Both the position numbers and the translations under genes were made by a program. Of a stretch of 64,000 nt of DNA, positions 36,017 to 61,608 are shown piece by piece; positions within the stretch are counted from its first letter, which is position 1, and every line of letters starts with the position of its first letter. This DNA comes from Methylobacterium sp. 77 (GTDB lineage Bacteria > Pseudomonadota > Alphaproteobacteria > Rhizobiales > Beijerinckiaceae): the NCBI RefSeq assembly GCF_000372825.1, contig NZ_KB910516.1, forward strand, positions 776,011 through 840,010, written 5' to 3'. The notes beneath the pieces were generated by a model. It searched no databases and was not told the DNA's origin. It saw only the letters and a program-made list of their open reading frames with translations.

Positions 36017-36274
36017 TTATTTCTTCATCGAGTCCTTCGACATCGAATCCTTGGACATGGAATCCTTGGCCATGCCGTCCTTGGACATGGAATCCTTCTT
36101 CATCGAATCCTTGGCCATGGAATCCTTCGCCATGCCGTCCTTCGCCATGCCGTCCTTGGACATCGAATCCTTCGACATGCTGTCCTTCGACATGGAATCG
36201 GCCGCGAAGACCGGGGTCGCCGTGACAGCCGTGGCGAGGACGAGGGCGGAGGCGATGCGCAGGAGCGTGCTCAT
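36017..36274 (-). CDS. Secreted MXKDX pentapeptide-repeat protein
   Basis: An 85-residue protein with a signal peptide (MSTLLRIASALVLATAVTAT, cleavage after VFAA). The mature part is nothing but about eleven copies of the pentad DSMSK / DGMAK / DSMKK. This is the MXKDX repeat family, a low-complexity periplasmic or secreted protein of unknown function that often accompanies SigF-type ECF regulators. The start is placed at 36274 to give a proper signal peptide. Methionine makes up about a quarter of the mature chain, which suggests a sink for oxidants or a metal-binding role; this is inference. It has its own SigF-like promoter. Confidence 0.85.
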   Translation of the reverse strand: MSTLLRIASALVLATAVTATPVFAADSMSKDSMSKDSMSKDGMAKDGMAKDSMAKDSMKKDSMSKDGMAKDSMSKDSMSKDSMKK

Positions 36275-40914: not shown

Positions 40915-42144
40915 ATGCTAGCGTGCTACGCCCGCACCGACGTCGAACCTGCTTCGGCCTCGCCCATAGGTCCACCGATGGCCATCGAGGAAACGGGCGG
41001 CCCGCGCGACTTCCGTTACGACGCGGTTCCACGTCTCACGCATTTCTCGGACGTGCTCGACGAGGCTCGGTACGTCCCGGTACCGGACAGCTGGTGGATC
41101 GCCCTCTGCGACGTGGTGATGTCGACGCGGGCGATCGAGGACGGGCGCTACCGGTCCGTGAACATCGCCGGGGCCGCCATGATCGCGGCCGTGAGCAACG
41201 CCCTACCTGGGGCCGACATACCGTTCGTGTTCGGGGGTGATGGCGCGACCCTGCTCGTTTCGCCCGAGCATCGCGATACGGTCGAAGCGGTGCTGGCCGC
41301 GACGGTGACCTGGGTCCGCGAGGCGCTCAAGCTCGACTTACGGGCCGCGCTGATTCCGATCTCGGCGGTAAGAGCGGCCGGTCACGATCTGCGCGTCGCA
41401 CGCTTCTCGGCCTCTGCCACCGTCGATTACGCGATGTTTTCGGGCGGTGGCGTCGCCTATGCGGACGCGACATTGAAGCGTGGCCTCCACGCGATCCCGG
41501 CGGCTTCTCCCGGTACCAAGCCCGACCTCACCGGCCTCTCCTGCCGGTTCCAGGCGGTCCCGGCCCAGGCCGGTCTGGTCCTCTCCCTGATCGTCCTGCC
41601 GGAGGAGGGCGCGGATCGGAGCGCGGTGTTCGCGATCCTCGGCGGGATCCTGGCCGAGATCGATGCGAGCCCCGGCATGGGACGGCCGCTGCCGGAATCC
41701 GGTCCTCCGATGCGACCGCCCTGGTCGGGCCTCTTCGAAGACGCGCACGCGGAAGGGCCTCTGGCGGGGTCGAGGCTTCTTCGGCTGGCGCAGCTGTTCC
41801 TGTCGCGCGGGACGGCCTTCGCGATATTCCGTCTCGGCGTGCCGTTCGGACGCTTCTCTCCACGCCGCTATCGACGCAGACTGGCCGCCAATGCCGATTT
41901 CCGCAAATACGATGACGGGCTCCGCCTGACCGTGGCCTGTCCCGTCGCCGTGGCGAATCGGATCGAGGCCCGCCTTTCGGTCGCGCAGGACGAGGGGCTG
42001 GTGCGATACGGGATCCACCGCCAGGATGCCGCCGTCGTCACCTGTATCAGCCCGTCGGTCCTGCGCGACGATCACGTCCATTTCGTCGACGGCGCCGATG
42101 GCGGCTATGCCAGGGCGGCCACCATGCTCAAGCGACGGCCATGA
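40915..42144 (+). CDS. DUF3095 protein, nucleotidyl-cyclase-like
   Basis: A 409-residue soluble protein of family DUF3095. The N-terminal part reads like a class III nucleotidyl cyclase fold: WIALCDVVMSTRAIEDGRYR holds an Asp (D66) where the first metal ligand belongs, and PFVFGGDGATLLVSPEH holds a second (D109) in a GGDG turn resembling the cyclase/GGDEF loop. The C-terminal third (RYRRRLAANADFRKYDDGLR, then HVHFVDGADGGYARAATML) is conserved-looking but of unknown role. Start at 40915 with GGGAGGG about 10 bases before it; an in-frame ATG at 40978 is possible. The stop overlaps the next ATG by four bases, so expression is tightly linked to a cNMP-binding patatin. A cyclase activity is inference. 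Confidence 0.8.
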   Translation: MLACYARTDVEPASASPIGPPMAIEETGGPRDFRYDAVPRLTHFSDVLDEARYVPVPDSWWIALCDVVMSTRAIEDGRYRSVNIAGAAMIAAVSNALPGADIPFVFGGDGATLLVSPEHRDTVEAVLAATVTWVREALKLDLRAALIPISAVRAAGHDLRVARFSASATVDYAMFSGGGVAYADATLKRGLHAIPAASPGTKPDLTGLSCRFQAVPAQAGLVLSLIVLPEEGADRSAVFAILGGILAEIDASPGMGRPLPESGPPMRPPWSGLFEDAHAEGPLAGSRLLRLAQLFLSRGTAFAIFRLGVPFGRFSPRRYRRRLAANADFRKYDDGLRLTVACPVAVANRIEARLSVAQDEGLVRYGIHRQDAAVVTCISPSVLRDDHVHFVDGADGGYARAATMLKRRP

Positions 42145-43886
42145 CGGGACCGGAAATCCCGTTCCTCGCCGGTCTGGACGACGAGGCCGCCGCCGCGGTG
42201 CGGGCGCACATGGTCCCGGTGGCGGTGGCCGGCGGAAGCACGCTGTTTGCGGAAGGAGAGCCGGGGGACGCGCTCTACACTCTGGTCTCGGGCGCCATCG
42301 GGATCTCGGTCGACGATCCCGATGGCGCGCCGCGCCGGATCGCCCGCCTCAGGCCGCCCGAAAGTTTCGGCGAGATGGCGCTGCTGTCGCCCGCGCCCCG
42401 GTCCGCGAAGGCCACGGCCCTGCGGGATTCCAGTCTCCTGCGGCTGACCCGCCCGGATTTCGAGGAGGTGGTCGAGCGTCATCCTCGGATGCTGCTCTAT
42501 TTCGCGCGACTGCTCACCGAGCGCATGCGCGCCACCCATGCCGGAGAGGCAATCCACCACAAGCCGCGCAGTTTCGCCGTGCTCGCCGTCACCGATGGCC
42601 TCGATGCCAGTGCGTTCGGGCATGCGCTGGCAGCGGCCTTCGACGACACCCTCCCGGGGAATACGGGTTGCCTGACGCGCTGGCCGGATGGGGCGGACGA
42701 AACGTGGTTCCATGATTACGAGACCGGCCACGCCCGCACGATCTTCGTCGCTCACGAGGTCGGCTGCCCATGGTGCCGGTTGTGCCTGCGCTACGCGGAT
42801 CATGTCCTCCTTCTCGCCGAACCCGGCCAACCGCTGCGCGCCGGGGCTGCCGCCTGGCTCGGGAGCCTGCGATCGGACTGGATCCGCATGGATCTCGCCG
42901 TTCCGCAGCGTGCGGATGCGGTTCTACCCCAGGCCATCCACCCGGATGTCGCCGCGTTGCCCGTCGCCCTGCGCATCCCCGTGCGTGTGGGCAATGCGGG
43001 CGATCTCCGCCGGCTCGCGCGTCTCGCGAGCGGCACGGCCAGGGGCCTCGTCCTCGGCGGCGGCGGCGCGCGCGGGCTCGCCCATCTCGGCGTGCTGCAG
43101 GCCCTGGACGAGGCCGGCTACGCTCCGGACTTCGTCGGCGGCACCAGCATGGGCGCGGTCGTCGCCGCGAGCCTCGCCATGGGGCTGAGCATCGAGCGGA
43201 TACGCGCGCGCACCGTCGACTTCTTCGTCGGGCACAATCCCCTCAACGACTACACGCTGCCCTACCATGCGCTGACCCGCGGGGCGAAGGTCGATGCCGG
43301 CCTCTCCGCGTGGTTCGGCGGCGCCCGGATCGAGGATCTCTGGCTCCCCTTCCTCTGCGTCTCCTCGAATCTGACGACGGGCTCCGCGATGGTTCATCGC
43401 GCGGGCGACCTGCCGGAGGCGTTGCGTGCCAGCATCGCCATTCCCGGACTTCTCCCGCCGGTCTGCACCGAGGCGGGCGTGCTGGTGGATGGCGGCATGA
43501 TGAACAACCTGCCGGCCGACGTCATGGCCGGGCTGGAGCGGGGACCGGTACTCGCCATCGATGTCGGCAGCGACCGCGCCTTCGGCGACATGCCGGCGCG
43601 CTCCTGGCGCGGCCGCATGATCCGGCGGATGCTCGGCGCGCCCGATGCCATGCCCGGCATCGCGCCCCTTCTGCTTCGGGCGGCAACGGTGTCGGGTGAC
43701 GCGCAGTCGATGATGGCGGTCGGCCACGCCGCCGCCCTGCTCAAGCCGCCCCTGGCCGGCATCGACCTGCGGGCGTGGTCGAGCTTCGAGGCCATCGCCG
43801 AGATCGGCTACCGGCACGCCAGGGAAGCGATCGCGCAGGGGCAGCTGCAGGCATGGGCGGAGGGCGACGGCCTACGCCGGCCATGA
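42141..43886 (+). CDS. Cyclic-nucleotide-binding patatin-like phospholipase (NTE family)
   Basis: A 581-residue protein. N-terminal cNMP-binding domain (about 5-125: GGSTLFAEGEPGDALYTLVS and FGEMALLSPAPRSAKATA, the phosphate-binding cassette with E and R). A middle Rossmann-like part (about 135-300, RSFAVLAVTDGLDASAF) as in neuropathy target esterase relatives. C-terminal patatin domain: oxyanion loop GLVLGGGGARGLAHLGVL (near 305), nucleophile GTSMG (Ser near 336), and the catalytic Asp in VLVDGGMMNN (near 450). The Ser-Asp dyad is intact. It should hydrolyse lysophospholipids or phospholipids at the membrane, with activity possibly switched by a cyclic nucleotide. The upstream DUF3095 gene overlaps it by four bases. 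Confidence 0.92.
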   Translation: MTGPEIPFLAGLDDEAAAAVRAHMVPVAVAGGSTLFAEGEPGDALYTLVSGAIGISVDDPDGAPRRIARLRPPESFGEMALLSPAPRSAKATALRDSSLLRLTRPDFEEVVERHPRMLLYFARLLTERMRATHAGEAIHHKPRSFAVLAVTDGLDASAFGHALAAAFDDTLPGNTGCLTRWPDGADETWFHDYETGHARTIFVAHEVGCPWCRLCLRYADHVLLLAEPGQPLRAGAAAWLGSLRSDWIRMDLAVPQRADAVLPQAIHPDVAALPVALRIPVRVGNAGDLRRLARLASGTARGLVLGGGGARGLAHLGVLQALDEAGYAPDFVGGTSMGAVVAASLAMGLSIERIRARTVDFFVGHNPLNDYTLPYHALTRGAKVDAGLSAWFGGARIEDLWLPFLCVSSNLTTGSAMVHRAGDLPEALRASIAIPGLLPPVCTEAGVLVDGGMMNNLPADVMAGLERGPVLAIDVGSDRAFGDMPARSWRGRMIRRMLGAPDAMPGIAPLLLRAATVSGDAQSMMAVGHAAALLKPPLAGIDLRAWSSFEAIAEIGYRHAREAIAQGQLQAWAEGDGLRRP

Positions 43887-43927: not shown

Positions 43928-44032
43928 AAGCCCGGTGCGCGGGCGCACCCGATCGCGGGATCGGCAGGTAACCGGGAGGTCTGCCGCAGCGAGTTCCTAG
44001 CATCGCAATCGATGTATCGAGGACGCGCCGCC

Positions 44033-45322
44033 ATGAAGGTGCTGATCGCCGCTACCGCCCTGACCGGGCACGTCAATCCGCTTCTCGCCGTCGGCCGGCT
44101 TCTCGCCGCGCGTGGGGACAGCGTCGTCATGACCACCGCCGAGCGGTTCCGCGAGCCGATCGAAGCGGCGGCCCTGCGTTTCGTGCCCTATGACGACGGC
44201 CATGCCGCGGAATACCGCGAGACAGGCCTGCCGGCAGGCCCCGAGCGCTCCCGGCGCGAGTTCGAACGGCGCTTCATCGATCCGATGCCGGTGCAGGCAG
44301 AGGCCCTGCGGCGTCTCGTCGAGACGGAACGGCCCGACGTGATCGTCGCCGGCAGCCTGTTCCTCGGCGTGTTGCCGATGCTGCTCGGATCGCGTCCGCG
44401 TCCGCCCATCGTCGTCCTGAACGTCAGCTTCCTGTTCCTCGACCGGCCGGACGACGCGCCGGTGGGCCTCGGACTGGCGCCGGCCCGGAACGCGGTCGAG
44501 CGGGCTCAATACGCGGTGCTGAAGTCCGCCATGGACGCCGCCTTCGTCGCTCCGGTGCGGTCCTATGCGGACGCAAAGCTCGCGGGGCTCGGCCTGCCGC
44601 CCCTGCCGGCGTCACTTCCGCATTCCATCGCCGTGTTGCCGGACCTGTTCCTCCAGCCGACCGTGCCTGAATTCGAGTACGATTACGGGATGCTTCCGCC
44701 GAACCTTCGCTTTACCGGCTTGCTACCGGTCCCGCAGACAGGGGTGCCGCTCCCGGATTGGTGGCGCACGCGCGATCCGGCGAAGTCCGTCGTCCTGGTG
44801 ACACAGGGCACCCTGGCGAATGCCGATCTCGGCGAACTGATCGAACCGACATTGGCGGCCCTGGCGGATCGTGACGACCTGATCGTCGTCGCGACGACCG
44901 GCGGGCGCCCGATCGAAGCCTTGAGCGGGGCAGTGCCGGCGAATGCACGGGTCGCACCGTTCCTGCCGTTCGATGCGATGCTGCCGGAGGTCGCCGTTCT
45001 CGTCACGAACGGAGGCTACGGCAGCGTCTCGCAAGCGCTCGCGGCCGGTGTCCCCATCGTCTCGGCGGGGATGACCGAGGACAAGGCGGAGATCGGCGCA
45101 CGCATCGGCTGGTCCGGCGCCGGCCTCAACCTCGCGACCAACGCTCCGACGGTCGGCGCACTCCGTGACGCGATCGATACGGCGCTGGCCCAGCCCCGCT
45201 TCCGCGCGCGGGCCGCGTCCATGGCCCGCTCCTTCGCGATGCTGGAATCGGGCAGGGCGGTCCTCGCCGGGATCGACGATGTCGTTCGCGCCGCGCCGGT
45301 TATCGAGGGGATCGCCGCATGA
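44033..45322 (+). CDS. MGT-type glycosyltransferase (GT1 family)
   Basis: A 429-residue GT-B enzyme. N-terminal acceptor domain MKVLIAATALTGHVNPLLAV (GHVNP is typical of UGT/macrolide glycosyltransferases). C-terminal sugar-nucleotide domain with VVLVTQGTLANADLGELIEP, RVAPFLPFDAMLPEVAVLVT, and NGGYGSVSQALAAGVPIVSA (the donor-binding signature normally HGGxGS; here Asn replaces the His). Donor is UDP- or dTDP-sugar and acceptor a small hydrophobic molecule, neither identifiable. The ATG at 44033 gives the canonical N-terminus. Its stop overlaps the next start, and three redox genes follow, so it probably decorates the product of the P450. Confidence 0.9.
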   Translation: MKVLIAATALTGHVNPLLAVGRLLAARGDSVVMTTAERFREPIEAAALRFVPYDDGHAAEYRETGLPAGPERSRREFERRFIDPMPVQAEALRRLVETERPDVIVAGSLFLGVLPMLLGSRPRPPIVVLNVSFLFLDRPDDAPVGLGLAPARNAVERAQYAVLKSAMDAAFVAPVRSYADAKLAGLGLPPLPASLPHSIAVLPDLFLQPTVPEFEYDYGMLPPNLRFTGLLPVPQTGVPLPDWWRTRDPAKSVVLVTQGTLANADLGELIEPTLAALADRDDLIVVATTGGRPIEALSGAVPANARVAPFLPFDAMLPEVAVLVTNGGYGSVSQALAAGVPIVSAGMTEDKAEIGARIGWSGAGLNLATNAPTVGALRDAIDTALAQPRFRARAASMARSFAMLESGRAVLAGIDDVVRAAPVIEGIAA

Positions 45323-45538: not shown

Positions 45539-45787
45539 ATGACGCGCACCAGCGAGACTGTTCCAGGCGAGACCGCGCCTCTCCGCGTCGTGGTCGACCT
45601 CAATCGGTGCCAGGGCTACGCGCAATGCTGCTACGCGGCGCCGGGCGCCTTCGAGGTCAGGGGCCACGAGATCCTGTTCTACGATCCCGCACCGCCGCGC
45701 GCGCGACGGGGCGAGATCGAGCGCGCCGTCCAGGCCTGCCCCGTCCGCGCCATCAGCCTGCAGGCCGATCAGGGAGAGATGCCGTGA
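45539..45787 (+). CDS. [3Fe-4S]-type ferredoxin of a P450 system
   Basis: An 82-residue ferredoxin. Cluster ligands are C24 and C30 in LNRCQGYAQCCYAAPGAFEV and C67 in QACPVRAISL. The position of the fourth Cys (CxxCxxC) is Tyr27, as in the CxxYxxC 3Fe-4S ferredoxins that serve bacterial P450s. It carries single electrons from the reductase encoded next to the P450 encoded after that. Its stop overlaps the GTG of the reductase (GTGA). AGGGAGA just upstream gives a good ribosome binding site. Confidence 0.92.
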   Translation: MTRTSETVPGETAPLRVVVDLNRCQGYAQCCYAAPGAFEVRGHEILFYDPAPPRARRGEIERAVQACPVRAISLQADQGEMP

Positions 45788-47103
45788 GCCCCGGCATCGA
45801 CGCCGGCATCGTCGTCGTCGGCGCCTCGCTGGCCGGCCTTCGCGGTGCGGAGGCTCTGCGCCGAAACGGCTATGCGGGCCGGCTCACCCTCATCGGCGAC
45901 GAACCGCATCGCCCCTACGATCGGCCGCCGCTGTCGAAGCACGTCCTGTCCGGCGAACTGGCGCCGGACGCAACGGAACTTCCGCACCTCGTCGCCCTCG
46001 ACGCGCAGTGGCGACTGGGCCAAGCGGCAGTGGCCCTCGACCGCGACGCACATACGATCCGCCTCGCCGACGGGACCTCGCTCGCCTACGACAGGCTGCT
46101 CGTCGCCACCGGTGCCCAGGCACGCCCCTGGCCGTCCGCGTCGGGCGGCACCCTCGCCAACATCTTCACCCTGCGCGGCCGCGACGATGCCGCCCGGCTG
46201 CGCACCGCGCTCGCTCGAGGGCCTCGCCGTGTCCTGATCGTCGGTGCCGGCCTGATCGGCTGCGAAGCGGCGTCCTGCTGCCGCGATCTCGGCCTGCCCG
46301 TCACCCTGGTCGACCCCAACCCGACGCCGCTCGCCCGCTCCCTCGGCACCTGGATCGGCGGTGTGATCGCCGAATGCCTCACGGATTCGGGCGTCGTCTT
46401 TCATCCGGGCGCACAGGTGCTCCGCTTCGACGGCGATGCGTCGGGCCGAGTCGTTCGCGCCCGGCTCGCGGACGGGCGCGTCGTCGAGACCGACCTCGTC
46501 ATCGTGGCTTTGGGCGCGACCCGGGCCACGGACTGGCTGAAGGGAGCCGGCCTCATGGCCGATCCCGGCGGCCTGACCTGCGACGGCGCCTGCCGCGTTC
46601 TCGGCACAGACGGCATTCCGGCTCCCGGCATCTACGCGGCCGGAGACGTCGCGCGCTGGCCGAACACCCTCTATGGCGGCCGACTGGTCTCGGTGGAGCA
46701 TTGGGGCAATGCCATCGCGCAAGGCGCGCATGCGGCACGCAACATGCTGGCGCCGGCCGAAGACCAGCGGATCTACGAGCATCTGCCGGCCTTCTGGTCG
46801 AGCCAGTTCGGGATCAACATCAAGGCCGTGGGCCTGAGCGAAGGCGCGGATTCGGTCGCCATCGTGCAAGGCTCGCGCGCATCGCGGCGCTTCCTCGCCG
46901 TCTACGGCCGCCACGGGCGCAGCATCAGCGCCGTGTCGTTCGATCAGGCGCGGTGGCTCCCGGCCTATGCCGAGGCGATCGTCGCCGGCCACCCGTTCCC
47001 GCCGATCCGCGATGCCGGCGACCAGGGCCGATTCCACTCCATGGCACCGGGTTTTCCGACGCCGCGTCCCGCATCCAGACCCGACGAGGCCCGCCATGGC
47101 TGA
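45784..47103 (+). CDS. FAD-dependent ferredoxin reductase
   Basis: A 439-residue NAD(P)H:ferredoxin reductase of the rubredoxin/putidaredoxin reductase type. FAD fold IVVVGASLAGLRGAEALRRN, then HRPYDRPPLSKHVLSG (family hallmark), NAD(P) fold RRVLIVGAGLIGCEAASCC, and PAPGIYAAGDVARWPN. The C-terminal domain has VEHWGNAIAQGAHAARNML. The GTG at 45784 overlaps the ferredoxin stop; in-frame sequence before it has no homology. Family length is about 400-410, so the Pro/Arg-rich last 25 residues are extra. It overlaps the P450 start by eight bases. Together these give a complete class I P450 chain. Confidence 0.93.
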   Translation: MSPGIDAGIVVVGASLAGLRGAEALRRNGYAGRLTLIGDEPHRPYDRPPLSKHVLSGELAPDATELPHLVALDAQWRLGQAAVALDRDAHTIRLADGTSLAYDRLLVATGAQARPWPSASGGTLANIFTLRGRDDAARLRTALARGPRRVLIVGAGLIGCEAASCCRDLGLPVTLVDPNPTPLARSLGTWIGGVIAECLTDSGVVFHPGAQVLRFDGDASGRVVRARLADGRVVETDLVIVALGATRATDWLKGAGLMADPGGLTCDGACRVLGTDGIPAPGIYAAGDVARWPNTLYGGRLVSVEHWGNAIAQGAHAARNMLAPAEDQRIYEHLPAFWSSQFGINIKAVGLSEGADSVAIVQGSRASRRFLAVYGRHGRSISAVSFDQARWLPAYAEAIVAGHPFPPIRDAGDQGRFHSMAPGFPTPRPASRPDEARHG

Positions 47104-48349
47104 CGACACGTTGTTCGCCGAAGTGCTGGACCCGGCCAATCGGGCCGATCCGTATCCGATCTATGCGCGGCTCCGCCAGAGCCCGGTCTCGCGCCAGCGC
47201 GACGGCAGCATCGTGGTGAGCACGCATGCGGCGATCCGCAGCCTGATGTTCGATCCGCGCCTCAGCTCGGAGGACCTGCCGCCCTCCCACCGCCCACGCA
47301 CCGGCAACCCGCTCAAGGATTGGCTCCTCAACCCGATCAAGGACCGCATCGCCACGGCGCACCGCCCCCTGATCTTCCGCGATCCGCCGGACCACGACAC
47401 CTTGCGCAGCGTCGTGATGCGGGAATTTTCGGTGTCGCGGGTGCAGGCGCTGAAACACCGCGTCGTCCGCGACGTGGACGCTCTCATCGATGCCTGCCGG
47501 GGACGCGACGAGGTCTGCCTCGTGGAGGATCTGTCCTACCCGCTGCCGGTATCCGTGATCTGCGACATGCTCGGCGTGCCGGAGGCGGACGAACCACAGT
47601 TCCAGGTCTGGGCGACGCAACTCGCCACCGCCCTCGAACCCGATGCCCGCCACGACGAGGCCAGCCGGCACAGGACGGTCGCCGCCTTCGACGCGATTTC
47701 CGGATACATGCGCGCCCTGATCCGTGAGAAGCGCCGGCGTCCGGGCCCCGACATGCTCAGCGCACTTGCAGCACCCGGCCCCGGCGGAAAGGGGGTGATG
47801 GGCGATTTCGACCTGATCTCGACGGCGATCCTGCTTCTGGTGGCGGGCCACGAGACGACCGTGAACCTGATCACCAACGGCATGCTGACCCTGCTGCGAC
47901 ATCCGCGGGAACTGGACCGCCTGCGCGACGATCCCGAGCGCGCCCCGCGCGTCATCGAGGAACTGCTCCGTTACGAGCCGCCCGTGCATTTCCGGACCCG
48001 GAAGGCGCTCGGGACCATCGAAGTTGCAGGGCACAGCATCCCGAAGGGAACGCCGGTGATCCTGCTCTTTGCCGCGGCGAACCGCGACCCCGCCCGATTC
48101 GTCGATCCGGACCGTTTCGACCCGGATCGGGAGGACATCCAGCATTTCGGGTTCGGCGGCGGGCTTCACTACTGCATGGGTGCACCGCTCGCGAGGATCG
48201 AGGCCGAGATCGCCCTGGTCGCCCTCTGTCGCCGCTTGATCGCACCGCGTCTCCTCGCCGATCCGCCACCTTATCGGCCCGGCGCGTCGCTGCGTGGCCC
48301 GGAGCAGCTCGGCATCGCCATCGCAGGGATCGCGCCCCTTCACGCGTAG
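47096..48349 (+). CDS. Cytochrome P450 monooxygenase
   Basis: A 417-residue soluble bacterial P450. I-helix oxygen site LLVAGHETTVNLITNGMLTL, K-helix ExxR in EELLRYEPPVHFRTRKA, and heme loop FGFGGGLHYCMGAPLARIE with the axial Cys at 360. N-terminal LDPANRADPYPIYARLR is typical of the CYP family that includes CYP107/CYP109-like enzymes. The ATG at 47096 gives this normal start. It hydroxylates or epoxidises a small molecule with electrons from the two genes before it. Substrate unknown. The glycosyltransferase at the head of the operon suggests a hydroxylate-then-glycosylate pathway. Only 18 bases separate its stop from that of the convergent outer-membrane gene. Confidence 0.95.
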   Translation: MADDTLFAEVLDPANRADPYPIYARLRQSPVSRQRDGSIVVSTHAAIRSLMFDPRLSSEDLPPSHRPRTGNPLKDWLLNPIKDRIATAHRPLIFRDPPDHDTLRSVVMREFSVSRVQALKHRVVRDVDALIDACRGRDEVCLVEDLSYPLPVSVICDMLGVPEADEPQFQVWATQLATALEPDARHDEASRHRTVAAFDAISGYMRALIREKRRRPGPDMLSALAAPGPGGKGVMGDFDLISTAILLLVAGHETTVNLITNGMLTLLRHPRELDRLRDDPERAPRVIEELLRYEPPVHFRTRKALGTIEVAGHSIPKGTPVILLFAAANRDPARFVDPDRFDPDREDIQHFGFGGGLHYCMGAPLARIEAEIALVALCRRLIAPRLLADPPPYRPGASLRGPEQLGIAIAGIAPLHA

Positions 48350-51555: not shown

Positions 51556-52079
51556 GCCCGGCTCCCGGCCGTGCGTGCCGGGCCGACCTGCCCGAACGGC
51601 CCATTCAGCCGCACGATCGCCCGGTTGAGCAGGGTCGCGACGCTGACCCAGGCGAGGTAAGGGGCGAGCAGCAGCGCAGCAATCCCCGATATCCGGGCCG
51701 TCACCACGATCAGCGCGACGATCGAGAGCCACAGGGCGATCACTTCGAGATAGGCCCAGTCCGGCCGGCGCAGACGGAAGAAGATCCCGCTCCAGGCGAT
51801 GTTGAGGACGAGATTGACGCCGTAGGCGGCAAGCAGCGCATGGCGCGTCGAGGCTTCCGCATCGGCGTTCCAGGCGATCACGGCGGAGACCGCCGTGAGG
51901 GTGAAGATCGTGGTCCAGACCGGGCCGAAGGCCCAATCCGGCGGTTTCCAGGAAGGCCGACGCAGGGCCTGGTACCAGGGGCCGGTCACCGTCAGGAGGC
52001 CGCCGGCCAGGGCGGTAACGAAGGCCGCTCCCGCCGCGACGGCGATCGTGCCCCAATCCGCGAGCAACCCGGACATCAT
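51552..52079 (-). CDS. tspO: TspO/MBR tryptophan-rich sensory protein
   Basis: A 175-residue membrane protein with five helices. Hallmarks: GGLLTVTGPWYQALRRPSWK and PPDWAFGPVWTTIFTLTAVS (the WxxxLxxPxWxPP loop that binds porphyrins), GVNLVLNIAWSGIFFRLRRP, APYLAWVSVATLLNRAI. In Rhodobacter TspO acts as an oxygen-related negative regulator of photosynthesis genes by handling tetrapyrrole intermediates in the outer membrane. The double Met start overlaps the bchP stop by four bases. Its place at the end of the bchG-bchP operon fits that role. Confidence 0.95.
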   Translation of the reverse strand: MMSGLLADWGTIAVAAGAAFVTALAGGLLTVTGPWYQALRRPSWKPPDWAFGPVWTTIFTLTAVSAVIAWNADAEASTRHALLAAYGVNLVLNIAWSGIFFRLRRPDWAYLEVIALWLSIVALIVVTARISGIAALLLAPYLAWVSVATLLNRAIVRLNGPFGQVGPARTAGSRA

Positions 52080-53260
52080 GGCGAGACCCAGCGGAAGAGA
52101 TGCGCGAGATCCTTGAAGAAGATCCGCGCATGGGCGGCTGGCTTTGCTCGGACCAGCTCCTTGTTCATGTAGGAATCCCAGGTGAGCTGCTGGACGTCCT
52201 TGTCCTTGCAGATCGAGACGAAGCGCTCGCGCAGGGCATCGTTGCGATACCAGACCCACTGCATCATCCGCAGGATCAGGAAGACGCGGCCGTGCAGCCG
52301 CATGAAGCGGCGCCGGGCCAGAGCCAGCGACGCGACCTTGCCGGTGGCGAGGAAGGTGTCGGCCGCTTCCGCCGCGAGCCGGCCGCCGAGCATCGCGTAA
52401 TAGATACCCTCGCCGGAGGCCGGGGCGACGATGCCGGCGGCGTCCCCGGTGAGCAGCACGTCGCGGCCGTTGTCCCAGCGCTTGAGCGGTTTCAACGGCA
52501 GCGGCGCGCCCTCACGGCGCACAGTTTCCCCGGCATCGAGGCCGGTGGAGGCGCGCAAGGCCCGGATCGCCCCGCGCAGGGAGAACCCCTTGCGCGCGCT
52601 GCCGGTGCCGATGCTGATCGTGTCGCCATGGGGAAAGACCCAGGCGTAGAAATCCGGCGAGAGCTTGCCCTGGTAATAGACGTCGCAGCGCGTGCCTTCG
52701 ACATCGCCGCTTCCATCCGCCGGCCGCCGGACGATCTCGTGATAGGCGAAGACCTGCTTCATCGACGCGTGGCCAGGAATCTCCGCCCGCCCGACCACCG
52801 AACTCGCGCCGTCCGCACCGATCACGAGGCGTGTGCGGACCCGGTGTTCGATGTCGCCGGCGCGGTAATGCACCACCGCCCTGCCGTCATCGTCCCGGAC
52901 GATGCGGGAGAAGCTTCCGGCCCGGTGGTCCGCGCCGGCCAGGGCCGCTCGGTCGCGCAGCCAGGGATCGAAATGCTCCCGGTCCACCATGCCGACGAAA
53001 CCGTCGCCGATGGGCATGTCGACACGCTTGTCGGCCGGCGAGACCATGCGGGCCGAGCGCACGCGGGCGACGAGGAGTTCGTCGGGGATGGCGAAATCGC
53101 GGATCAGTCGCGGCGGTATCGCGCCGCCGCAGGGCTTGATCCGACCCGGCTTGTCGAGGAGCAAAACCCGGCGGCCCATCCGGGCGAGGTCGGTGGCGGC
53201 CGTGGCCCCGGCCGGGCCGCCGCCCACCACCACGACGTCGAAGGTCTCCAGTTCCGGCAT
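52076..53260 (-). CDS. bchP: Geranylgeranyl diphosphate / bacteriochlorophyll reductase
   Basis: A 394-residue FAD flavoprotein that reduces the geranylgeranyl tail of bacteriochlorophyll a to phytyl. Seen: FDVVVVGGGPAGATAATDLA, VLLLDKPGRIKPCGGAIPPR (BchP/ChlP hallmark), RLVIGADGASSVVGRAEIPG, VLLTGDAAGIVAPASGEGIY. The start at 53260 is four bases after the stop of the PucC-like gene, so the two are co-transcribed. Length and neighbours (bchG two genes upstream) match other purple-bacterial clusters. Expression is likely controlled by the PpsR site upstream of bchG. Confidence 0.96.
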   Translation of the reverse strand: MPELETFDVVVVGGGPAGATAATDLARMGRRVLLLDKPGRIKPCGGAIPPRLIRDFAIPDELLVARVRSARMVSPADKRVDMPIGDGFVGMVDREHFDPWLRDRAALAGADHRAGSFSRIVRDDDGRAVVHYRAGDIEHRVRTRLVIGADGASSVVGRAEIPGHASMKQVFAYHEIVRRPADGSGDVEGTRCDVYYQGKLSPDFYAWVFPHGDTISIGTGSARKGFSLRGAIRALRASTGLDAGETVRREGAPLPLKPLKRWDNGRDVLLTGDAAGIVAPASGEGIYYAMLGGRLAAEAADTFLATGKVASLALARRRFMRLHGRVFLILRMMQWVWYRNDALRERFVSICKDKDVQQLTWDSYMNKELVRAKPAAHARIFFKDLAHLFRWVSP

Positions 53261-53264
53261 CGGT

Positions 53265-54608
53265 TCACCTCAGCGACAAGTGGGGCTGGAGCACCGGCTC
53301 CTTGGGACGGGCGCGGCGGCGCAACTGGGTCTCGGTCGCATGCTCGATCCGCACCGCCAGGGCGGCGCCGACCAGGAACAGGGCGGCCTCGGCCAGGAAA
53401 ACGGCGGCATAGGCATGGACCGGCTCGGGGCTGACGAGGCGGGCGAGATCCACCGCCATCGTTCCGAGGAAGCCGCCGGCCCCGAAGGCGACGCCTTGGG
53501 CCGCCCCCCAGACACCCATCCTCGTACCGCGCTCGGCCTCACCGCCGGCGCCGGCCAGCCCCATCATCGAGCCGATGGCGGCCACCGCGAAGATTCCGTT
53601 GAACAGGCCGAGGGCGAAGACGGCAACGCGCAAGGGGAAGTCCGGTCCGACCAGGCCACCTCCGGCAATCGCCGCGAGTGCCAAGGCGGAACCGGCGCAG
53701 CCGGTGGCGGTCCACAGCTTGAGCGATCCGAGATAGGGACCACCGATTCCCATGGTCAGGCCGGCGACGGTGAGCATGCCGGCGAGCACGCCGCCATGCT
53801 GCAAGCCCGACAGTTTGGTGGTGCCGCCCGGCGTCATCGCGAAGACGAGACCGGCGAACGGTTCGAGGATGAGTTCCTGCGCACTGTAGGCGAGCATCGC
53901 CACGAAGATGAAGATGGTGAAGCGGCGAGAGGCCGGCTCGGCCCAGACCCGGGCGAGCACCTCACCGAACGGCCGCTTCTCCGACGTCTCCGACGGGCCG
54001 GATGCGGACCGGTGCGGTTCGACGCCGCTCACTGCGATCACGGCGAGGGCGAAGGCGGCGAGCGACACCGTGCCGGAGACGGCGACCAGGCGGCCGCCGG
54101 AGAACGGGTCGAGGAAATGGCCGGCCAGGGGCGCGCTGATCGCGAAGCCGGCGATCATCATCACCCAGACGATCGTCGCGGCAGCCCCCCTGCGGCGGGC
54201 ATCGACGCCGCCCGCCAGGAGGACAAGGAGCGAGGTCCCCGCGGCACCCGCGCCCATCCCCACCATCAGGAAGGACAGGATGGCGAGGCCGATACCGGCC
54301 GCGAGATGCGTCTCCATGAGGGCAGTGGCCGAAGCCGCGCCGAAGCCGCCGAGGCAGAGCGCCGCCATTCCGCCGACGATCCAGGGCGTGCGCCGCCCAC
54401 CCACATCCGAACCGTAGCCCCAGCGAGGGCGCAGGACCTGCACGGCATAATGCAGCGTGACGAGAGCACCCGGAATCATCGCCGGAAGGGCGAGTTCCAC
54501 GACCATGACCCGGTTGAGGGTCGAGGTCATGAGGACGACGACCGAGCCCAGAGCAGTCTGGACGAGGCCGAGCCGGACGATGGCGAGCCAGCTCAGGGTC
54601 GGCGCCAT
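53265..54608 (-). CDS. PucC-family MFS transporter (BCD family)
   Basis: A 447-residue major-facilitator-type membrane protein with about 12 helices, of the BCH/PucC family (often called bch2, orf428 or LhaA/PucC-like). Seen: VQTALGSVVVLMTSTLNRVM, VQVLRPRWGYGSDVGGRRTP, AGAAGTSLLVLLAGGVDARR, LEPFAGLVFAMTPGGTTKL. Such proteins help assemble light-harvesting complexes, perhaps by moving or delivering bacteriochlorophyll. It sits between bchG and bchP as in Rhodobacter. Its ATG shares one base with the bchG stop. Confidence 0.92.
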   Translation of the reverse strand: MAPTLSWLAIVRLGLVQTALGSVVVLMTSTLNRVMVVELALPAMIPGALVTLHYAVQVLRPRWGYGSDVGGRRTPWIVGGMAALCLGGFGAASATALMETHLAAGIGLAILSFLMVGMGAGAAGTSLLVLLAGGVDARRRGAAATIVWVMMIAGFAISAPLAGHFLDPFSGGRLVAVSGTVSLAAFALAVIAVSGVEPHRSASGPSETSEKRPFGEVLARVWAEPASRRFTIFIFVAMLAYSAQELILEPFAGLVFAMTPGGTTKLSGLQHGGVLAGMLTVAGLTMGIGGPYLGSLKLWTATGCAGSALALAAIAGGGLVGPDFPLRVAVFALGLFNGIFAVAAIGSMMGLAGAGGEAERGTRMGVWGAAQGVAFGAGGFLGTMAVDLARLVSPEPVHAYAAVFLAEAALFLVGAALAVRIEHATETQLRRRARPKEPVLQPHLSLR

Positions 54609-55528
54609 CAGGTGTTTCCCTGAATGAGGGCACGCAGGGCGAATGCCGCCACCAGCATGCCGAGCACGTAGAGTGTGGTGCCGGTGCCGTTGTACCAGGC
54701 CGCCCGCTCGCGCGGGCTCTGAAGCAGGCGGGACATCAGGGCCAGCTGGGCGACGAGCAGGCCTCCGATGGCGGCGGCATGCCCGGCGCAGTTCCAGGCT
54801 GAGAGGATGATGATCACCACCACCTGGGGCGCCGCCATCACGAGGCAGGCGAAGCGAGCCGCCCGGTCCGTTCCGAGCTGGACCGGCAGCGATCGCAGGC
54901 CCATGCGCTCATCGCCCTCCACCGACTTGAAATCGTTGAGGGTCATGATGCCATGGGCGCCGATGGAGTAGAGCAGGGCGACGATCAGGACTCGAGGGTC
55001 GGGCAGGGCACCGGCCATCACGGCAGCGCCAGTGAACCAGGGCAGGCCCTCGTAGCAGAGCCCCACCGCCGCGTTGCCCCACCATCCGTTCCGCTTCAGC
55101 CTAAGTGGCGGTGCGCTGTAGACCCAGGCGAGGACGAGCCCGAACAGGGCGGCCCCGAGGATCCAGGGTCCGAGCACGGCCGAGACGGAGAGGGAGAGGG
55201 CGGTCCAGGCGAGGGCGACGTAGAGTCCCCAGCGTCCGGGCATCCGCCCGGATGGGATCGGCCGATGCGGCTCGTTGATCGCATCGACATGGCGGTCGTA
55301 CCAATCGTTGACCGCCTGCGAGGTGGCGCAGACCAGCGGACCGGCCAGCACGATGCCGGCGACGATGACGGGCCAGCGCCCTTCGGCAGACACACCGGAG
55401 GAGACCACGCCACAGGCGAAGGCCCACATCGGCGCGAACCAGGTGATCGGCTTCAGAAGCTCGAGCAGAGTGCTGGGAGCGGGGATGCCGACGGAAGCGG
55501 CGGGAGGTGTGGACGCCGACGTTGCCAT
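54608..55528 (-). CDS. bchG: Bacteriochlorophyll synthase
   Basis: A 306-residue UbiA-type prenyltransferase that attaches the geranylgeranyl or phytyl tail to bacteriochlorophyllide a in the inner membrane. Seen: LLELLKPITWFAPMWAFACG, the Asp-rich site QAVNDWYDRHVDAINEPHRP, RPIPSGRMPGRWGLYVALAW, and the second Asp motif TLNDFKSVEGDERMGLRSLP. These are diagnostic of BchG/ChlG. First gene of the bchG-pucC-like-bchP-tspO operon. A perfect PpsR-type palindrome lies 32 bases before its start. Confidence 0.97.
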   Translation of the reverse strand: MATSASTPPAASVGIPAPSTLLELLKPITWFAPMWAFACGVVSSGVSAEGRWPVIVAGIVLAGPLVCATSQAVNDWYDRHVDAINEPHRPIPSGRMPGRWGLYVALAWTALSLSVSAVLGPWILGAALFGLVLAWVYSAPPLRLKRNGWWGNAAVGLCYEGLPWFTGAAVMAGALPDPRVLIVALLYSIGAHGIMTLNDFKSVEGDERMGLRSLPVQLGTDRAARFACLVMAAPQVVVIIILSAWNCAGHAAAIGGLLVAQLALMSRLLQSPRERAAWYNGTGTTLYVLGMLVAAFALRALIQGNT

Positions 55529-55559
55529 GACGTCGAAGCTAGGGGTCGCCCCCAGCCTG

Positions 55560-55577
55560 TGTCAATCTGGATTGACA
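55560..55577 (-). promoter_or_regulatory. PpsR/CrtJ binding site before bchG
   Basis: TGTCAATCTGGATTGACA: TGT-N12-ACA with perfect 8-base arms. This is the PpsR/CrtJ consensus, located in the bchG promoter region and just downstream of the ppsR gene itself. A partly overlapping TTGACA could serve as a -35. Confidence 0.85.
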
Positions 55578-55632
55578 ATGAAGACGTCAAGAAAATGCGA
55601 CATCTCGTCCATCAATGGACAGGACGGCCTCA

Positions 55633-57075
55633 TTACTCGTCCGGGGTCTCCGGCCCGTCGAGATCGCCGATACCGTAGCGGCGCAGCTTGGCGTAGAGCC
55701 CCTGGCGGCTGAGTCCGAGCATTTCGGCGGCCGAGGCGCGGTTGTCGCGGGTGATGCGCAGGGCGGCCTCGATGCAGAGACGCTCGATCAGATCCGTCGA
55801 TTCGCGCACGAGGTTCTTCATCGATACGCGGCCGACGAGTTCGGTCATCTGTTCGACGGAGCGCGGCAACTCACGCCCGCCCGGTGCGGCAGCCGCGCGG
55901 CGCGGGGTCGAGCGGATGGTGAAGCCGAAGCAGGGCTGCCCGCCACCGGGCACCGAGACGGCCGCGACCTCGACATCCTCCACCGAGCCGTACTCGCCAC
56001 GGAGGCTCGTCGCGAAGTGACGCACGGAGCCATGCTGGCCGAGGGTCGAGAACAAGGCGGCGGCCTCGGTCTCCTCGCGCCCGAGCCAGCGGTCGAGGGG
56101 TTCGCCGCGCACCTGTTCCTCGGTGGCGAGCTGCACGAGATCAAGGAAGGCCGCGTTGGCGGCAAGGATGCGGCGCGACGGATCGGTGACGACGAAGCCT
56201 TCCGGCAGGCTCTGGATCACGTCGAGGGCCGAGGCACCGGCACGCCCGGGAACCGATGCGTCGGACGGTCCGGAGGAGAGGCGCAGGAGCGCGCTCGTGG
56301 CGTTCTCCTGCCGGAACAAAGAGGCGGCGACGCGGGTCTCGCCGCGGCCGTTGCCGAGCCGGGCAACGAGGTCGCCGGCCTGGCCGGTGACGCGCAGCCC
56401 CGCGAACAGCGATTCGAGCTCGCGCGTACTGCCGGCCTCGAACAGATCGACCACGTCCTGGCCGATGATTCGCTTCTCCGCCCGGCCGAGAAGGCGGGCG
56501 GCGGCCGGGTTCACTTCGGTGACGCGGCGGGTGGCGGCATCCACCACCAGCACCGGCTCGCCCGCGAGCTGGAACAGCAGGCGATAACGGGTCTCGGCCC
56601 CGCGCAGGCGGAGATAGTCGCGTTCCAACGCCTGCTGCGTTTCCGCGAGCTTGCGTTGAAGCGCCGCCATCGCGCGCAGATTGCGGCCGATGACGATGAT
56701 CGGGCCATCGGTCTCGAGGCGCATGGCGGAATAGCGCACGGGCAGATCGATGCCGGTGGCGGAGGGGTGGTTCACCTGCCGCCAGCGCGTCACGGCACCG
56801 GGTGCGGCATCACGCAGGAGGGCGGCGATCTTGGGCCGGCTCTCGACGGTGACGGTATCCACCCAGCGTTGGCCGAGCCAGGTCTCACAGCCTTCGTCGG
56901 CGAAATCGGCATTGCCGAAGGCCGCGTCGCGGATGATCCCATCCGCGTCGACCACAAGGGCGAGGTCGGTGGCAGCCGCGACGAGAAGCCCAGCCGACTC
57001 TGCATCGAGTGGGCCGAGGGCTTTGCGGAGCGCTGCGAACGTTTCCGCCGCTGCAGGAAGTGCCAGACTGGTCAA
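55633..57075 (-). CDS. ppsR: PpsR/CrtJ photosynthesis repressor
   Basis: A 480-residue regulator. N-terminal region and PAS domains (about 20-125, 155-265, 280-390), including VLVVDAATRRVTEVNPAAAR and GFVVTDPSRRILAANAAFLD. C-terminal Fis-type helix-turn-helix: LCIEAALRITRDNRASAAEM, then LGLSRQGLYAKLRRYGI. The Cys in LCIEAAL is the conserved redox-active residue of the DNA-binding domain. PpsR represses bch, crt and puc genes under oxygen at TGT-N12-ACA sites, one of which is present before bchG. It follows aerR by 35 bases, the standard arrangement. Confidence 0.96.
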   Translation of the reverse strand: MTSLALPAAAETFAALRKALGPLDAESAGLLVAAATDLALVVDADGIIRDAAFGNADFADEGCETWLGQRWVDTVTVESRPKIAALLRDAAPGAVTRWRQVNHPSATGIDLPVRYSAMRLETDGPIIVIGRNLRAMAALQRKLAETQQALERDYLRLRGAETRYRLLFQLAGEPVLVVDAATRRVTEVNPAAARLLGRAEKRIIGQDVVDLFEAGSTRELESLFAGLRVTGQAGDLVARLGNGRGETRVAASLFRQENATSALLRLSSGPSDASVPGRAGASALDVIQSLPEGFVVTDPSRRILAANAAFLDLVQLATEEQVRGEPLDRWLGREETEAAALFSTLGQHGSVRHFATSLRGEYGSVEDVEVAAVSVPGGGQPCFGFTIRSTPRRAAAAPGGRELPRSVEQMTELVGRVSMKNLVRESTDLIERLCIEAALRITRDNRASAAEMLGLSRQGLYAKLRRYGIGDLDGPETPDE

Positions 57076-57110
57076 GGATCACCACGATGTGACGACGTCG
57101 AGCCGGTCTT

Positions 57111-57995
57111 TCAGCAGGGTCTCGCCCGCGGATCAAGCAAGCTCTCGGCGATGGTTAAGGCAATACGTGCATCGCTCGCCGTCGCGTCCGCGCCGACGAG
57201 TGCCGAATGGTCGGGGTTATCGAGGAAGATCGGCCCGCCGACCATGACACGGACAGAGGGATTGCGCGAGGCACGACGAAGCTCGGTCACCACCCGGGTG
57301 AGAGTCGGAAGTAATGTTTCGCACCCGAGAGACACGCCGATCACGTCGAACCAACCCGTGCTGGCGGTGCGGAGGACATTGGAATGAGGGGAGTGCGCCG
57401 TGCTCGTCACGTCCCATCCCGCATCACGAAAGAACCGCTCGACGAGAGAGAGGCCGAAACTATGCGTCTCGCCCGGACAGGCCATCAGGAAGATGCTGCG
57501 CCCATGCGGATCCGGCGCCGGCTCGGAGTGAAACCGGGCGGTGAGATCGTGCATGATGCGCTGAAGCCGGCCCATGGCGATGGTGAGTTCCGCGAAATCG
57601 CAGAGATCCTCCTCCCAGAGATGCCCGAGATGGCGGGCCGTCGGGGCGAGCAGATCGAGCAGCAGGCTGTCGAGGGCCAAGCCGCCATCCACGAGGATCG
57701 CGATCCGGCTTTCGACATCCTCGCAATCCGGCGACAGGACCAAGGTCGCGAAATCCACGATCTGGTCGGAATTCGGCAGGATACCGGGACGTTCGGCGCG
57801 AGAATCCGCCCGATGCGCGAGCATCAAACGCGGGATGATCTCGGCCTCGATCACACCGGCGAGATGGAGATCCCAGGGTGCGCTCTGAGCCGGTCGCGGC
57901 AGATCGGGATATCGTGCAGACTCGCGGAGTGCGTGCACGTCGTTAGGCAATGAATCAAAGGTCGAAACCGTACGAAGTTGTCGAACATCATCCAT
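57111..57995 (-). CDS. aerR: AerR/PpaA-like cobalamin-binding regulator
   Basis: A 294-residue antirepressor-type regulator. N-terminal helical region (LALDSLLLDLLAPTARHLGH, then LWEEDLCDFAELTIAMGRLQ), then a B12-binding Rossmann domain with IFLMACPGETHSFGLSLVER (the His near 176 is the expected cobalt ligand), FDVIGVSLGCETLLPTL and VRVMVGGPIFLD. AerR/PpaA binds cobalamin, senses light, and modulates CrtJ/PpsR. The ATG at 57995 is chosen because GGAGGA lies five bases before it; a TTG four codons upstream is possible. Upstream of ppsR in the same operon. Confidence 0.92.
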   Translation of the reverse strand: MDDVRQLRTVSTFDSLPNDVHALRESARYPDLPRPAQSAPWDLHLAGVIEAEIIPRLMLAHRADSRAERPGILPNSDQIVDFATLVLSPDCEDVESRIAILVDGGLALDSLLLDLLAPTARHLGHLWEEDLCDFAELTIAMGRLQRIMHDLTARFHSEPAPDPHGRSIFLMACPGETHSFGLSLVERFFRDAGWDVTSTAHSPHSNVLRTASTGWFDVIGVSLGCETLLPTLTRVVTELRRASRNPSVRVMVGGPIFLDNPDHSALVGADATASDARIALTIAESLLDPRARPC

Positions 57996-58192
57996 TGGAT
58001 CCTCCAATGTTTCATGATGGCTTCTTGATACAGCTCGATCTTAACTGCCGAACTTCACGTCATCGACTTAAAAGACGTCAGGCGCTGCTTACAATGCGAC
58101 AGGCGACCTTGTCGGTGACGATACGCATGGAAATCGGTTTGGCAATCCTGAAACTCACATTATTATGCATCAATTCCGTAAATTGAAAATGA

Positions 58193-60074
<1,882 letters not shown>

Positions 60075-60078
60075 GCCG

Positions 60079-61608
60079 ATGCAGCTCACCGTCTGGACCT
60101 ATGAAGGACCACCCCATATTGGCGCCATGCGCGTCGCCACCGCCATGCGCGGCCTCCACTACGTCCTGCACGCGCCGCAAGGCGACACCTACGCCGACCT
60201 GCTGTTCACCATGATCGAGCGGCGCGATGCGCGCCCGCCGGTGACCTACACTACCTTCCAGGCTCGCGACCTCGGCTCGGACACCGCCGCGATCTTCAAG
60301 GACGCGGTGGAAGCCGCCTACGAGCGGTTCAAACCGGAGGCGATGATCGTCGGCGCGTCCTGCACCGCTGAGCTGATCCAGGACGATCCGGGTGGCCTCG
60401 CCAAGGCCCTCGCCCTGCCGATCCCGGTGATCGCACTCGAACTCCCGGCGTACCAGAAGAAGGAGAACTGGGGCGCCTCGGAGACCTTCTATCGGCTGGT
60501 GCGGACGCTCGCCGGCCCGGCCGCGCCCGCCGGACCTCGCGAGGGACGGCGTCCGCTCTGCAACATCCTCGGCCCCACCGCCCTCGGCTTCCGTCACCGC
60601 GACGACCTCATCGAGATCAGGAGCCTGCTCGACCGGCTCGGGATCGACGTGAACGTCGTAGCGCCGCTGGGCGCGAGCCCCACCGACCTCACCCGCCTCG
60701 GCGCGGCCGATTTCAACGTCGTGCTCTATCCCGAGATCGCCCGCGCCGCCGCGCAGCACCTGCAGAAGATCTTCGGCCAGCCGATGATCGAGACCGTGCC
60801 GATCGGCGTCGGAGCGACCATCCGTTTCATCGAGGAAGTGGCGGCACTCGCCGGGATCGATCCGGCCCCGGTCCTCGCCGGCGCCCCCTCGCGGCTGCCC
60901 TGGTATTCGCGCTCGGTCGATTCGACCTATCTGACGGGCAAGCGCGTCTTCATCTTCGGCGATGCGACCCATGCGCTCGCCGCCGCCCGGGTCGCGGCCA
61001 CCGAGCTAGGCTTCAAAATCGTCGGTCTCGGCACTTACACTCGCGAATTCGCTCGGGAGATCCGGGCCGAGGCGGCGCTCCACGGCATCGAGGCCCTCGT
61101 CACCGACGATTACCTCGACGTGGAGGCGGCAATCCAGGCCAGCGCCGCCGAGCTGGTGCTGGGCACGCAGATGGAGCGCCACATCGCCAAGCGTCTGGGC
61201 CTGCCCTGCGCGGTGATCTCGGCCCCGATCCACGTCCAGGATTTTCCGGCCCGGCACTCGCCGCAGATGGGATTCGAGGGCGCCAACGTCCTGTTCGATA
61301 CCTGGGTCCATCCCCTGATGATGGGGCTCGAGGAGCACCTCCTGGGCATGTTCCGCGAGGACCACGAATTCCACGCCGACGCCGCGCCCTCGCACCTGTC
61401 GGCGCATGCCGAGGACATCGCCTCCCCCAAAGCGGAAGGACAGCGGGTGGCACCCTGGGATGCCTCCGCCGAGAAGGAACTCAAGAAGATCCCCTTCTTC
61501 GTGCGCGGAAAAGCCCGCGCCAACACCGAACGGTTCGCACGCGAGCGCGAACTCTCCCTCATCACAGTCGAGACGCTCTATGATGCCAAAGCGCATTTCG
61601 GGCGCTGA
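60079..61608 (+). CDS. bchB: Light-independent protochlorophyllide reductase subunit B
   Basis: A 509-residue partner of BchN. The N-terminus [20 protein letters not shown] and [20 protein letters not shown] place Asp36 as the fourth, non-cysteine ligand of the NB cluster. Other family blocks: [60 protein letters not shown], and the C-terminal [20 protein letters not shown]. The start at 60079 gives the canonical N-terminus. Its 3' end overlaps bchH by 26 bases, so the two are translationally coupled. Confidence 0.97.

Follow-up and report, generated by a model that had tools for sequence, protein, structure and literature searches.

Within a stretch of 64,000 nucleotides from Methylobacterium sp. 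77 (NCBI RefSeq assembly GCF_000372825.1, contig NZ_KB910516.1, positions 776,011 to 840,010; hereafter the window), two plus-strand genes overlap: the first encodes a protein of the function-unknown family DUF3095, and the second a patatin lipase carrying a cyclic-nucleotide-binding (CNB) domain. The arrangement raises the question of whether the first product makes a messenger that gates the second, and what such a switch would control. The best reading, which we favour tentatively, is a signalling pair of a tandem cyclase and a cyclic-nucleotide-gated lipase, situated in a lipid-tailoring cluster.

The overlapping genes

Both open reading frames were found on the plus strand, with the following elements.

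40915..42144, plus strand: DUF3095 protein gene, 409 aa (388 aa from a start at 40978), predicted tandem class III cyclase fold
41110..41112, plus strand: codon of D66, first predicted metal-binding Asp (CDVVMST), Asp in 260 of 260 covering alignment rows
41239..41241, plus strand: codon of D109, second predicted metal-binding Asp (FGGDGA), Asp in 261 of 261 covering rows
41896..41907, plus strand: D328-F-R-K331, second-domain hairpin, candidate base or phosphate contacts by strand order
42073..42090, plus strand: H387-V-H389-F-V-D392, second domain, candidate active-site residues
42141..42144, plus strand: ATGA overlap of the DUF3095 stop and the lipase start, read from the sequence
42141..43886, plus strand: CNB-patatin lipase gene, 581 aa, PF00027 and PF01734, weak NTE P-loop-like stretch
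42366..42407, plus strand: CNB phosphate-binding cassette F76 to A89, FGEMALLSPAPRSA, with E78 and R87
43137..43157, plus strand: patatin nucleophile elbow GGTSMGA, S336
43488..43496, plus strand: DGG catalytic aspartate motif, D450

A preliminary description of this locus had pointed to a four-base overlap, to two aspartates (in CDVV and GGDG) and to a cNMP-binding domain joined to an intact Ser-Asp patatin. All three were borne out, by the ATGA at 42141–42144, by D66 and D109, which are invariant wherever covered, and by PF00027, PF01734, S336 and D450.

Fold of the DUF3095 protein

The DUF3095 protein matches PF11294 over residues 35–406 (E 6.4e-124; 414.3 bits against a cut-off of 22.2; profile positions 2–378 of 378), and no further domain lies within its 409 aa. 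The start of the gene is uncertain: a database copy (P0001) has 388 aa, consistent with a start at 40978, and the low predicted local distance difference test score (pLDDT < 50) of residues 1–30 in the model bears on the same point. The 4.66-Mb single-contig source genome contains one DUF3095 match, and the closest named homologues are from Methylobacterium.

Comparison of the DUF3095 model with structures, a check proposed in the preliminary description, gave a cyclase-like fold in which cyclase-homology domains are paired. The top VIA match is 6YII (10% identity), a class III cyclase-like protein of P. aeruginosa titled ATP-binding protein in the PDB. In PMC11224242 this protein is assigned to clade A PycC, its metal aspartates being superposable, and clade A PycC proteins contain two cyclase domains in succession. 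Judged by the model, DUF3095 looks like a tandem cyclase-fold protein in a single chain, related, with its two domains, to enzymes that form cyclic nucleotides. The layout would resemble the C1–C2 core of mammalian adenylyl cyclases within one chain. That DUF3095 is instead a palm-domain relative of Cas10, mCpol or GGDEF and makes a different nucleotide, such as an oligonucleotide (linear or cyclic) or a c-di-GMP-like molecule, is considered very improbable.

At the level of sequence, the DUF3095 profile retrieved no cyclase from the PDB, 6YII included, and the Guanylate_cyc profile PF00211 matched 0 of 59 DUF3095 members at E up to 1. When aligned by hhalign with 14 locus-derived cyclase relatives, the N half reached a probability of 18.7 with the D109 region in register, the D66 motif aligning just as a separate piece (probability 0.3); for the C half the probability was 1.0 on the same scale. 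Comparison of the N half with the C half returned the eight residues common to both cuts and a weak GGxxxA/LK match, nothing more, so that an internal duplication of DUF3095 is without sequence support. The second domain taken alone was not distinctive, and the viral structure library gave no DUF3095 match at E ≤ 0.001. An open-access literature search on the word DUF3095 found no paper, and a literature search found none on 6YII itself.

Variant forms of the family were also observed. Three genomes (G059, G164 and G264; loci L022, L187 and L188) carry DUF3095 paralogues of approximately 345–362 aa in which part of the interdomain linker is missing, and genome G415 (L154:4953-7455) has a full-length DUF3095 gene twice in a row on the same strand, which suggests that the protein may be duplicated or heteromeric there.

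Candidate active site of DUF3095

Conservation was read from an alignment of 263 rows, near copies included, comprising the query, 143 distinct locus-derived sequences (the query's own locus among them) and 119 sequences from a protein search; five rows have fewer than 330 residues. D66 and D109 are also invariant in a smaller alignment (59 of 59 homologues) and are predicted to bind metal. They stand 43 residues apart, a spacing close to that in the pyrimidine cyclase EaPycC, where D102 and D146 are separated by 44 (PMC11224242). Eight further residues, namely D328, K331, T376, C377, H389, F390, D392 and G397, are identical in 263 of 263 rows, H387 is present in 258 of 263, and R143 and K188 show no variation among the rows that reach them. 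The model has strands at 330–333 and 336–342, and by strand order this second-domain hairpin, which holds K331, would correspond to the D109 hairpin of the first domain. K331 would then fall near the position of the base-recognition lysine of adenylyl cyclases.

Class III cyclases carry a transition-state Asn and Arg near the last helix. At the corresponding place in the second domain of DUF3095 no conserved Asn or Arg was found, position 400, placed by strand order, being S, R, M, Q or L; conserved Asn and Arg residues are situated elsewhere (N83, N95 and R143). The invariant residues, together with the failure to find the usual Asn-Arg pair, therefore make the site look asymmetric and under strong selection, and perhaps not canonical. 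The pyrimidine specificity of EaPycC involves F100, R142 and Q144 (PMC11224242). Spacing from the aspartates places L64, V105 and G107 at the first-domain equivalents in DUF3095; in a tandem cyclase the corresponding residues may sit in the second domain.

In the proposed mechanism, the first domain would supply the metal-binding D66 and D109, and the second domain the candidates K331, D328, H387/H389 and D392. DUF3095 probably turns a nucleoside triphosphate into a 3',5'-cyclic nucleotide, which the CNB domain of the lipase would sense, switching the patatin domain on or off. Catalysis, the nature of the messenger, gating and the pathway are inferred from what the analysis shows, namely the genes, the predicted fold, the conserved residues and the recurrent overlap and neighbourhood. 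That no Asn-Arg pair was found at the expected place also suits a different explanation, namely that DUF3095 binds a nucleotide, makes no messenger and regulates or stabilises the lipase, whose CNB domain would sense cyclic AMP or cyclic GMP from other cyclases. The PDB title of 6YII points the same way, as do six PF00211 matches elsewhere in the source genome, the cyclase relatives that neighbour DUF3095 in another family, and the lipases that occur without DUF3095 in 8 of 17 same-genus genomes. However, both aspartates and R143, K188, D328, K331, T376, H389 and D392 are invariant beyond the usual need of nucleotide binding, and 6YII is also assigned to clade A PycC (PMC11224242). A purely nucleotide-binding DUF3095 is considered possible, yet doubtful. 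Since the predicted cyclase fold is here combined with an invariant asymmetric candidate site, this function-unknown family becomes open to direct enzyme assay.

The CNB-patatin lipase

The second protein contains a cNMP_binding domain (PF00027, E 2.5e-21, residues 29–114) and a Patatin domain (PF01734, E 1.5e-29, residues 303–461); an NTE_Ploop match (PF24179, E 0.0027) is below its cut-off, with 17.9 bits against 27. The patatin motifs are GGGGARG, GTSMG (S336) and DGG (D450), and the CNB domain carries GEMALLSPAPRSA, including E78 and R87. In 17 of 17 unbroken same-genus copies the cassette GE[MV]ALLS..PR[SA]A, the oxyanion GGGGAR, the nucleophile GTS[MI]G and the DGG are all intact. Judged by these motifs, the protein is an NTE-type CNB-patatin lipase, with CNB joined to a patatin domain bearing GxSxG and DG(A/G), and its phosphate-binding cassette is one in which Glu and Arg are kept. 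To our knowledge, the CNB domains of NTE-type lipases have no settled ligand.

A motif scan for cyclases near CNB-patatin lipases elsewhere (30 loci, flanks of about 1.5 kb or less) gave only matches that were judged spurious. The residue after the cassette Arg is Ser in 7 of 7 linked copies and Ala in 9 of 10 unlinked ones; no conclusion is drawn from it, because the difference follows one clade of the lipase tree.

Linkage of the two genes

Linkage was surveyed in 37 same-genus genomes, this one included, with pair counts resting on tblastn and locus genes called by a simple codon-usage caller, which returned no DUF3095 row at 7 loci of the neighbourhood scan and at 10 of 60 of the cyclase-neighbour scan. 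DUF3095 is present in 12 of the 37 and an unbroken lipase in 17, with a broken lipase in two more (L228 in G033 and L232 in G019). Both genes occur in nine genomes and are adjacent in seven. Of the 12 genomes with DUF3095, 3 have no lipase, and of the 17 with an unbroken lipase, 8 have no DUF3095.

Ten pair loci were compared (this window, J-090, J-078, gregans, rhodinum, crusticola and four more, two repeat copies, of gregans and J-078, being left out). A stop/start overlap is kept in eight of them (ATGA in six, GTGA in one and TTGA in one), and the genes are separate in two. On the lipase tree the linked label requires four changes, three of them forced by well-supported branches, and 36 of 500 shuffles were as low. 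Because linked copies occupy several deep branches, the tree is consistent with an old linkage that subsequently disappeared from one clade of nine and on one other occasion; gains are also possible, the direction of change depending on the midpoint root.

In a phylum sample of 397 genomes, DUF3095 was found in 50 (fragments included) and the lipase in 39 (E up to 1e-50), a count that may be low because the three best candidates per genome were scored. Both were found in two genomes against 4.9 expected by chance, and there is no phylum-wide pairing. Furthermore, no overlapping lipase stands beside DUF3095 outside Methylobacterium/Methylorubrum in a Bradyrhizobium-dominated genome scan. Adjacency of the two genes, which the preliminary description proposed to survey, was seen in a single genus.

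The two genes could be merely co-transcribed neighbours with unrelated roles. The phylum-wide figures (2 of 397) agree with this, and so do the same-genus genomes in which either gene stands without the other. Even so, the overlap persists in 8 of 10 pairs although the flanks are rearranged, and the lipase holds a domain suited to reading a cyclase product; unrelated roles are regarded as improbable.

Other Methylobacterium loci show a different downstream gene: at six (L001, L003, L006, L072, L097 and L129) a regulator that is GcrA-like by sequence appearance follows DUF3095 in place of the lipase, and these loci share a common run of genes upstream of DUF3095. In M. crusticola (L057) the same upstream run is present, but the lipase is downstream.

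Genes around the pair

Downstream of the lipase in the window, four genes follow on the same strand.

44030..45322, plus strand: glycosyltransferase, EryCIII/UGT-like (PF06722 E 1.9e-15, PF00201 E 2e-7)
45539..45787, plus strand: ferredoxin (PF13459 E 9.5e-8)
45784..47103, plus strand: ferredoxin reductase (PF07992 E 1.2e-51, Reductase_C PF14759)
47096..48349, plus strand: cytochrome P450 (PF00067 E 6.8e-27; closest solved relative CYP164A2, E 2e-82)

The P450 is similar both to CYP164A2 and to PikC, a macrolide hydroxylase, and the glycosyltransferase to natural-product enzymes. Nine of the ten pair loci have the P450, ferredoxin reductase and ferredoxin within the flanks retrieved. The set is laid out in at least four ways: on the same strand after or before the pair, on the opposite strand before it, and convergent. 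The glycosyltransferase is near 6 of 10. At the tenth locus the sequence ends 0.4 kb past the lipase, and the 8 kb upstream is without the P450 set. None of the four associated genes was found within flanks of 2–8 kb at ten single-gene loci, comprising seven DUF3095-only loci (one place being represented twice) and 3 of 10 lipase-only loci. Every one of the 14 same-genus genomes whose P450 is at least 74% identical also has the lipase (intact in 13, broken in one), compared with four intact lipases in the other 23; shared ancestry is uncorrected in this comparison, and the two genes lie apart in 7 of the 14. A literature search on Methylobacterium P450/lipase clusters found nothing relevant among the papers listed.

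This neighbourhood favours a role in lipid or metabolite tailoring. Given the P450 redox chain beside the pair, and the glycosyltransferase that often accompanies it, the likely output would be a lipid released or remodelled under control, then oxidised and glycosylated, rather than cell killing. A bolder claim is held with low confidence: that DUF3095 represents a hitherto unrecognised family of tandem cyclases in one chain, whose site is non-canonical (near-invariant His, no usual Asn-Arg pair), making a cyclic mononucleotide, possibly an unusual one, and forming with the CNB-patatin protein a gated phospholipase switch that feeds P450/glycosyltransferase lipid tailoring in Methylobacterium. 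If the pair works as proposed, a phospholipase gated by a cyclic nucleotide would have a cyclase dedicated to it in a setting other than immunity.

At the locus of one broken lipase (L228), which has no DUF3095, the glycosyltransferase–ferredoxin–reductase–P450 set remains alongside. Elsewhere in the window, a PUCC-family gene (53265–54608, profile-tested) follows the P450 at a distance of a few kb, in a region (52000–64000) with the appearance of a photosynthesis gene cluster, and a small secreted-looking protein (36017–36274, minus strand) consists mostly of MSKDS/MAKDG-type pentapeptide repeats.

DUF3095 and cyclases beyond the pair

The genome scan, in which 80 of 565 confirmed loci were kept, is an uneven sample because Bradyrhizobium dominates it. 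DUF3095 recurs there beside the same genes, the commonest in 54 of 80 and 48 of 80 loci, which by sequence appearance, without a profile search, look like SDR, GNAT and MATE transporter proteins. Another family of the order has, at 10 of 13 loci, a BLASTP relative of a class III cyclase within 5 kb of DUF3095, and PF00211 was confirmed in both of the loci tested among those ten (L136 and L142). About 0.4 such loci would be expected from 226 PF00211 matches in approximately 82 Mb, and the ten represent far fewer independent events because of synteny. In one further family (L173, one locus) DUF3095 is preceded by a same-strand gene whose product is related to that cyclase and reached no Pfam match.

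In L136, and also in L145 and L167, DUF3095 is flanked on both sides by class III cyclase-related genes (L136:7621-9342 and L136:1839-3185); the product of L136:7621-9342 combines a 2Fe-2S ferredoxin domain with a Guanylate_cyc domain behind an apparently hydrophobic N-terminus. In the source genome, outside the window, G000:C1:2158206-2159135 joins a cNMP-binding and a Guanylate_cyc match, apparently in one 387-aa frame, possibly a self-sensing cyclase, and another Guanylate_cyc match lies approximately 0.4 kb beyond.

A possible role in defence

A cyclase-like gene beside a CNB effector gene, with a clade A PycC as the top VIA match, brings to mind a Pycsar-like (pyrimidine cyclase system for antiphage resistance) mechanism in which the cyclase fires upon infection and the lipase destroys membranes. 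The lipase does match effector models of PADLOC, the CNB domain to PycTIR (E 1.7e-16) and the patatin domain to phospholipase effectors (best E 1.5e-9), these matches being confined to the generic CNB and patatin regions. Against such a mechanism, no PADLOC model matched DUF3095 (for PycC, 0 families at E up to 1) or any of the 10 genes searched of the 18 others called in 35.1–57.1 kb. The neighbours are instead a P450, a ferredoxin, a reductase and a glycosyltransferase, and the Bradyrhizobium neighbourhood of DUF3095 is repeated and ordinary-looking. Among 72,556 plasmid records, 249 carry DUF3095, and 226 of these are from Rhizobium or Sinorhizobium; among 50,697 phage records a single one has a match, which covers 18% of the query. 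On general reasoning a killer effector is seldom kept without its cyclase, yet the lipase stands alone in 8 of 17 genomes. Beyond the generic matches of the lipase, the PADLOC, plasmid and phage searches give no support; a defence role for the pair is unlikely, and infection-triggered membrane destruction has a slim probability.

From the preliminary proposal of a signalling pair, the cyclase-like fold by model comparison, the invariant aspartates, the CNB cassette, the catalytic dyad of the lipase and the overlap in 8 of 10 loci are retained, and its defence side gives way before the PADLOC results and the P450-set neighbours. The resemblance to CBASS or Pycsar logic survives as Pycsar architecture, 6YII being assigned to the two-domain clade A PycC, and not as defence, with DUF3095 unmatched in PADLOC.

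Comparison with known systems

In the case of Pycsar (PycC with PycTM or PycTIR), the logic of a cyclase-like gene beside a CNB-domain effector gene is shared. The effector here is a patatin lipase rather than a TM or TIR type, the neighbours are metabolic, and the pair was seen in one genus. The resemblance is real in architecture and logic, and the effector type and the PADLOC models place the pair outside the system. Compared with 6YII and clade A PycC, DUF3095 is 10% identical, with neither a profile match nor a PADLOC PycC match. CBASS (cyclic-oligonucleotide-based antiphage signalling systems) with a patatin phospholipase effector likewise has a nucleotide-gated phospholipase as its output, as proposed here. 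However, the sensor in our pair is a CNB domain, the lipase reaches 34.3 bits with the CBASS_lipase model, whose cut-off is 200, and DUF3095 matches no CD-NTase family (pfam, ncbifam and padloc, E up to 1).

Similar two-domain, single-chain layouts are found in the class III adenylyl cyclases sAC/ADCY10, AC8 and AC9 of humans, which DUF3095 resembles by fold, whereas it gave no sequence-profile match, no Asn-Arg pair was found at the expected place, and it has its own invariant His and GG motifs. The present lipase joins a CNB and a patatin domain in one chain, as do NTE/PNPLA6-7 and bacterial CNB-patatin lipases, and has a weak P-loop-like stretch as well. NTE carries several CNB domains, whereas this lipase has one, together with an overlapping cyclase-like gene. 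If the proposed pairing is true, it could provide a bacterial model for NTE-type lipases in which gating is measurable.
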